Source: a virus. From it: a DNA stretch of 47,374 nt. Position 1 is the stretch's first letter, and the number at the start of each line of letters is the position of its first letter. The stretch is taken from the IMG/VR virus record IMGVR_UViG_3300031277_000004, positions 1 through 47,374 of that record; one strand, given 5' to 3'. A model generated the notes under the pieces. That model ran no database searches. It was not told the origin of the DNA and saw nothing but the letters and a program-made list of their open reading frames with translations. A program made the translations under genes and the position numbers. Below, piece by piece: positions 39,410-39,566 of the stretch.

Positions 39410-39566
39410 AGGCCGGTGGTGGAAATGGAAGACACACCAGTTTCAAGGGTTGAAAGCCCCGAGCGGACTGCTTTTTTGCCACTATAAAATGTTTTGGTAG
39501 ATAGTAATGGTCCAAAAATAGCTGGTATTAAAATATAATGTGCCTGTTCGAGTCAGGTCAGGCCAA
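39410..39566 (+). tRNA. tRNA-Leu(CAA)-like gene with a 72-nt insertion in the anticodon loop
   Basis: This is a class II layout. The D arm is GTG-GAAATGGAAGA-CAC, as in bacterial tRNA-Leu. The anticodon stem is CCAGT (39437-39441) with GCTGG (39521-39525). The variable arm is ATTA-AAATA-TAAT, and the T arm GCCTG-TTCGAGT-CAGGT. The acceptor AGGCCGG/CAGGCCA has two mismatches. The loop begins TTCAAGG, giving anticodon CAA at 39444-39446, but runs 79 nt. TTTCAA-GGG-TTGAAA can sequester the anticodon. The excess lies on the 3' side of the anticodon, near position 37/38. Confidence 0.65.

Follow-up and report, generated by a model that had tools for sequence, protein, structure and literature searches.

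Interrupted tRNA-like genes in a phage genome, including a tRNA-Leu(CAA) locus, as candidate members of a little-known class of tRNA-shaped RNAs of viruses

The window analyzed here is the whole stretch of viral DNA, 47,374 nt in length, of IMG/VR record IMGVR_UViG_3300031277_000004. Using ARAGORN with introns allowed, together with inspection, we identified in it the body of a tRNA-Leu(CAA) with an interrupted anticodon loop, hereafter locus 3 (Table 1). A preliminary description had proposed a class II tRNA-Leu(CAA) body with a 79-nt loop at 39410-39566, and its parts and coordinates were confirmed. The loop starts canonically, with U33, the CAA anticodon and G37, but is 79 nt long versus the usual 7, i.e., it holds 72 extra nt. 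These lie 3' of the CAA, as had been described, and on their removal ARAGORN called a tRNA-Leu(CAA) with a long variable arm. The suggested pairing of a TTG in the insert with the CAA was also found, in the form of the hairpin TTTCAA-GGG-TTGAAA.

Locus 3 was called neither by default ARAGORN nor by Rfam, and a Leu-specific interrupted-tRNA pattern yielded this one match compared with 0 expected. It has the Leu-type D arm, the U33 and purine 37, the long variable arm and the T arm of a functional tRNA, but lacks the 7-nt anticodon loop, the length of about 85 nt, the detection by the default model and the intact acceptor stem. Two of the seven acceptor pairs are mismatched (A1-A72 and one G-A). 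Damage is confined to the acceptor; the other four stems (D, anticodon, variable and T) remain intact. The cloverleaf was predicted at -38.1 kcal/mol versus an unconstrained minimum of -43.5 kcal/mol, a gap of 5.4 kcal/mol, and the minimum-energy fold is not a cloverleaf (overall z -1.4).

Table 1. Positions of the tRNA-like loci, neighboring structured elements and selected genes of the window, and of a related RNA family in other viruses
Feature	Position	Strand	Remarks
Locus 1, tRNA-like	38595..38700	+	Perfect 7-bp acceptor, perfect 5-bp T arm, D arm; 31-nt insert at 38632-38662; z -4.0
Locus 2, tRNA-like	38704..38838	+	7-bp acceptor (one G-U), perfect T arm; 9-bp hairpin in D region at 38721-38747; anticodon-like 7-bp stem CTATATT/AATATAG at 38768-38797, 16-nt loop; z -3.2
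Locus 3, tRNA-Leu(CAA) body with interrupted anticodon loop	39410..39566	+	ARAGORN with introns allowed, and inspection
Locus 3, acceptor 5' strand AGGCCGG	39410..39416	+	Partner CAGGCCA at 39559-39565; two mismatches
Locus 3, D arm GTG-GAAATGGAAGA-CAC	39419..39435	+	Leu type
Locus 3, anticodon stem 5' strand CCAGT and canonical loop start TTCAAG	39437..39447	+	Stem strand at 39437-39441; whole loop at 39442-39520; CAA at 39444-39446
Locus 3, 72-nt insert	39448..39519	+	After position 37; without group I/II or other Rfam match
Locus 3, anticodon stem 3' strand GCTGG	39521..39525	+	5 bp with CCAGT, one G-U
Locus 3, long variable arm	39527..39539	+	4-bp stem ATTA/TAAT; from ARAGORN drawing of insert-free form
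Locus 3, T arm GCCTG-TTCGAGT-CAGGT	39542..39558	+
Isolated canonical T arm CGGGG-TTCGATT-CCCCG	19436..19452	+	Degenerate body; just upstream of Shine-Dalgarno and ATG at 19488
Isolated canonical T arm GGCGG-TTCGATT-CCGCC	21275..21291	+	No recognizable tRNA body; upstream of ORF at 21347
Structured element E	39312..39393	+	CCAGGGTAA...TTACCCTGG stem around two hairpins, then T-run; z -4.3
Structured element G	39575..39672	+	AGGAAAGAGG...CCTCTTTCC stem around two hairpins, then T-run; layout as E
Structured element H	39672..39830	+	12-bp terminal stem TATAGTCCCTTG/CAGGGGGCTATA; z -2.5
Mu gpT-like major capsid protein	516..1412
DUF3268 zinc-finger protein	26574..26954
TET-associated-type glycosyltransferase (Pfam TAGT)	36242..37012		Suggests hypermodified DNA
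Conserved tRNA-like family, 18 IMG/VR contigs	L145:8641-8737(-), L147, L175, L243, L249, L253, L256-L267

Two further tRNA-like genes sit 0.6-0.8 kb upstream of locus 3, and their tRNA likeness is stronger than that of locus 3. In locus 1, the cloverleaf is itself the unconstrained minimum-energy fold. By pairing both internally and with the anticodon loop, the insert lengthens the anticodon arm to 17 bp, so that the stem runs on as a single long helix. A continuous 11-bp helix is built by the insert itself, and the fold has one 2-nt bulge. Without the insert, ARAGORN called locus 1 a tRNA-Gln(UUG). The loop of the anticodon-like stem of locus 2 starts TTGTAAT if 5 bp are counted, giving a tentative Tyr GUA anticodon. 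ARAGORN -i calls (introns allowed) at 19292 and 21112 were rejected as interrupted tRNAs because their T arms alone are convincing. Elements E and G have the same layout and lie one on each side of locus 3, and element H carries a Leu-like D-arm repeat, GTGGTGGAAATAGACAC, without a TTC loop. The tRNA-Leu(CAA) locus is therefore not unique, with two more interrupted tRNA-like genes and two isolated T arms in the same phage and comparable genes elsewhere. The preliminary description was correct but understated, having overlooked both the acceptor mismatches of locus 3 and the multiple such loci in the genome.

These features exceed chance expectation. ARAGORN with introns allowed (-i) called four interrupted loci in the 47-kb window, compared with none when the window was dinucleotide-shuffled 20 times and one in 500 shuffles of the 1.6-kb region; there were also no interrupted calls in 1.46 Mb of TerL-related contigs, which hold 18 normal tRNAs. 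With a minimum of three G-C pairs required, five T arms were found (19436, 21275, 38676, 38814 and 39542), all on the + strand and all intergenic, where 0.15 per window were expected from shuffles and 0.42 from natural related DNA. ARAGORN called no intact tRNA in the window. The interrupted loci cluster upstream of the small terminase gene. That there are five separate loci makes an assembly error unlikely.

No similar DNA was found in annotated phages, and the collections searched yielded no close relative of the phage. The best TerL identity was 58% (contigs L010 and L011, by alignment query), followed by 40-49% in other IMG/VR contigs; the major capsid protein reached at best 34% in IMG/VR, and no portal relative was found there. 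The bacterial Leu-type D arm and the bacterial-type gene relatives do not favor an archaeal host. In L011, the nearest TerL relative, an ordinary tRNA-Met lies some 620 bp upstream of TerL, which marks the region upstream of the terminase as a natural tRNA site in the group. Given this similar placement, the ancestor was probably a real tRNA. In both the window (38700-38716) and L011 (57-73), a tRNA 3' end upstream of the terminase is immediately followed by ATA(A)GGCCCC[C/G]TGCCT; this may reflect a common leader hairpin or coincidence. The combination of a tRNA end with a following GGCCCC.TGCCT could not be generalized, since IMG/VR gave just L011 and an unconvincing L268, in which no tRNA was called at that place. 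Regarding the loci themselves, neither 2.7 Mb of loci nor the IMG/VR patterns yielded a relative of locus 1, 2 or 3; the exact core pattern of locus 1 had no match in IMG/VR, and nhmmer searches of the 2.7 Mb with all elements gave nothing beyond weak tRNA-arm similarity.

Interrupted tRNA-like genes were also found in other viruses. IMG/VR was scanned with a pattern for a tRNA-Leu with an oversized anticodon-to-T-arm distance; the matches listed are a biased sample, and most were tandem normal tRNAs. ARAGORN -i, run on 120 contigs from the matches listed, gave at least 26 interrupted calls, and at least 24 of these, in at least 22 contigs among the matches listed, overlap no normal tRNA. An independent script confirmed the acceptor, D and T arms in most of the interrupted calls among the matches listed. 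Single interrupted genes included L195:2527-2674(-), a tRNA-Leu(UAA) with a 72-nt insert at 37/38; L210:5638-5768(-), with a 50-nt insert at the same place as that of locus 3; L221:6116-6210(-), with an extended anticodon arm like that of locus 1; L226:1482-1636(+), with a D-loop hairpin insert as in locus 2; and others in L191, L238, L240 and L252. In these single genes, inserts of about 8-80 nt are placed in the anticodon, D or variable region. L144:131-428(-) is a tRNA with a 226-nt group I-like insert in the anticodon loop and GATATAGTCC near its 3' part.

A conserved tRNA-like family was present in 18 IMG/VR contigs (Table 1). Its members keep the acceptor, D arm and T arm but have, where the anticodon arm would be, an invariant AGGAAGTCCGAGA-hairpin-GTAGGCAT core; as this core was set in the search pattern, the result is partly by construction. 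Inspection of the alignment by eye showed the acceptor, hairpin and T stem to covary. In Rfam the family matches as tRNA at 35 bits, with 41 instead of 15 nt at the replaced place, and no separate Rfam family was found at E<=10. From the aligned sequences, a tRNA shell with a non-decoding center appears to be a conserved viral design. A second tRNA-like design, with an encoded CCA-like end, was seen in L138:10199-10315(-), L204, L162:698-814(+) and L164, with the common core ATCCTG..AAGGATAC..CAGCAAT..TTTCAATYC. The window loci share with both groups a common design, not sequence, and those cores are missing from them.

Taken together, the data indicate that the window loci are probably tRNA-shaped RNAs of a little-known viral class, or else disrupted tRNAs, and not an archaeal-type intron. 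As the best explanation we propose that at least three tRNA-derived genes have kept the tRNA shell while the anticodon region was interrupted or rebuilt, yielding stable, non-decoding phage RNAs; for the whole set, we place this somewhat short of an even chance. It is supported by the five intergenic + strand T arms, the lack of an intact tRNA, the folding of loci 1 and 2, the genes of other viruses with intact acceptor, D and T arms, the 18-contig family and rnaC of phage T4. Our preferred reading shifted because at least one family in other viruses clearly consists of conserved tRNA-like RNAs that lack an anticodon arm. Against it, loci 1-3 fall outside that family, their AGGAAGTCCGAGA...GTAGGCAT core being absent, and the IMG/VR patterns found no relatives of them. 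Moreover, a canonical Leu anticodon loop and stem would be needless in a non-decoding RNA, and locus 3 has acceptor mismatches and a minimum fold other than the cloverleaf. Non-decoding RNAs are thus the preferred reading for loci 1 and 2. For locus 3 taken alone, its canonical anticodon loop, the mismatches in its acceptor and its poor folding make a recently disrupted tRNA nearly as probable.

On the preferred reading, the shell, i.e., the acceptor/T-arm helix, D arm and variable arm, with an insert of about 13-72 nt, would be transcribed within a phage operon and matured by host tRNA enzymes through RNase P and CCA addition, the latter because no CCA is encoded. The product might accumulate as a stable tRNA-shaped RNA unable to read codons. 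Its target would most likely be tRNA-binding proteins, for which it could serve as a decoy or sink, e.g., for tRNA-handling or tRNA-cleaving enzymes. Phage tRNAs have been tied to escape from tRNA-cleaving defenses (PMC11555353, PMC13096335), and by analogy a counter-defense role is plausible. With rather less confidence, we suggest that tRNA-shell RNAs with swapped anticodon arms have spread through unrelated phages, this phage having several and no ordinary tRNA, and that they perhaps occupy or mislead processing, modifying and cleaving (defense) enzymes. This wider claim draws more on the 18-contig family than on locus 3.

The preliminary description had also allowed for an inactivated gene, and this alternative stays live. 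The loci would then be pseudogenes, i.e., a former small tRNA array that lost its function and was broken by indels, with locus 3 a tRNA-Leu that received a 72-nt insertion. We consider this unlikely for the set as a whole, yet it accounts for the two acceptor mismatches and weak folding of locus 3, the reduction of the loci at 19436 and 21275 to little beyond a T arm, the differences among the remnants at all five loci and the fact that no intact tRNA is left in the phage. However, locus 1 retains all acceptor and T pairs and has an 11-bp helix formed by the insert, and random decay builds no helices. Locus 2 likewise keeps its acceptor and T arm along with strong internal hairpins, and in locus 3 every stem except the acceptor has stayed intact.

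That the inserts are short introns, removed either by protein enzymes or through an unknown self-cleaving fold so as to leave a working tRNA-Leu(CAA), tRNA-Gln(UUG) and perhaps tRNA-Tyr(GUA), we regard as improbable; short tRNA introns of this type are not known from bacterial systems. The insert of locus 3, and that of locus 2 if it is a Tyr gene, follow a canonical anticodon loop at site 37/38, ARAGORN recognizes loci 3 and 1 as ordinary tRNAs once the insert is removed, L195 and L210 have insertions at the same place, and TTG makes up 30% of the Leu codons of the phage. Archaeal and nuclear tRNA introns resemble the insert of locus 3 in lying just 3' of the anticodon (37/38) and in being tens of nt long. 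Such introns are marked at their junctions by a bulge-helix-bulge, i.e., two 3-nt bulges with a 4-bp helix between them. Inspection of the folds revealed none in loci 1, 2 or 3, so that the archaeal/nuclear-type intron first envisaged is not supported; furthermore, the D arm of locus 3 is of the bacterial Leu type. These introns also need a splicing enzyme, and neither an RNA ligase nor a splicing endonuclease was seen among those phage proteins that were examined, a part of the total. Group I introns of bacterial and phage tRNA genes likewise interrupt the anticodon loop, but the window inserts, at 13-72 nt, are too short for a group I core. In agreement with the earlier view that this is no normal group I/II intron, Rfam gave no match to a group I/II core at the locus at the gathering threshold or E<=10, and no non-tRNA RNA family at gathering or relaxed thresholds. 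The acceptor mismatches of locus 3, the extra D-region hairpin of locus 2 and the G at position 32 of locus 1 also speak against working tRNAs, and we know of no bacterial pathway for removing such short tRNA inserts. Judged from sequence and predicted folds, the intron idea for locus 3 is not supported.

Finally, tRNAs punctuate mitochondrial transcripts, and tRNA 3'-half mimics could similarly act as RNase P or RNase Z sites, or as 5'-leader structures, that cut or stabilize polycistronic mRNA, but we find this very improbable: the T arms do lie between genes on the coding strand, elements 19436, 21275 and 38814 end about 28-50 nt before a Shine-Dalgarno-bearing start codon and terminator-like structures (E, G and a hairpin at 38553-38583) lie alongside, yet closeness to start codons is expected where phage intergenic spaces are short, and it would not explain why locus 3 has kept its Leu D arm, its anticodon loop and its variable arm.

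Among the systems compared, the 18-contig family, like the window loci, combines tRNA acceptor, D and T arms with a longer structured insert in place of the anticodon arm, but differs in its conserved core and in that the members checked also carry normal tRNAs. The nearest model is provided by RNAs C and D of phage T4 (species 1 and 2 RNA; NC_000866 70908-71171), which are phage-encoded, lie in a tRNA neighborhood and have been without a known function since the 1970s (PMC4933390). T4 rnaC, of 139 nt, ends like a canonical tRNA, its 3' half comprising CCGGG-TTCGAAT-CCCGG, a long variable arm and the acceptor, and its 5'/anticodon half is altered; the window loci are likewise altered inside; no TTCRA T arm is visible in rnaD. 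T4 has eight normal tRNAs, whereas the window phage has none, and no sequence similarity was detected between T4 and the window loci. The tRNA-like 3' half with a non-tRNA interior that defines the RNA C type was found clearly in loci 1 and 2, and with an imperfect acceptor in locus 3. If tRNA-shelled, anticodon-replaced RNAs recur among phages, annotation would need to change, since the standard tRNA finder skips interrupted genes by default, and the fifty-year puzzle of T4 RNAs C and D would become testable in many phages.
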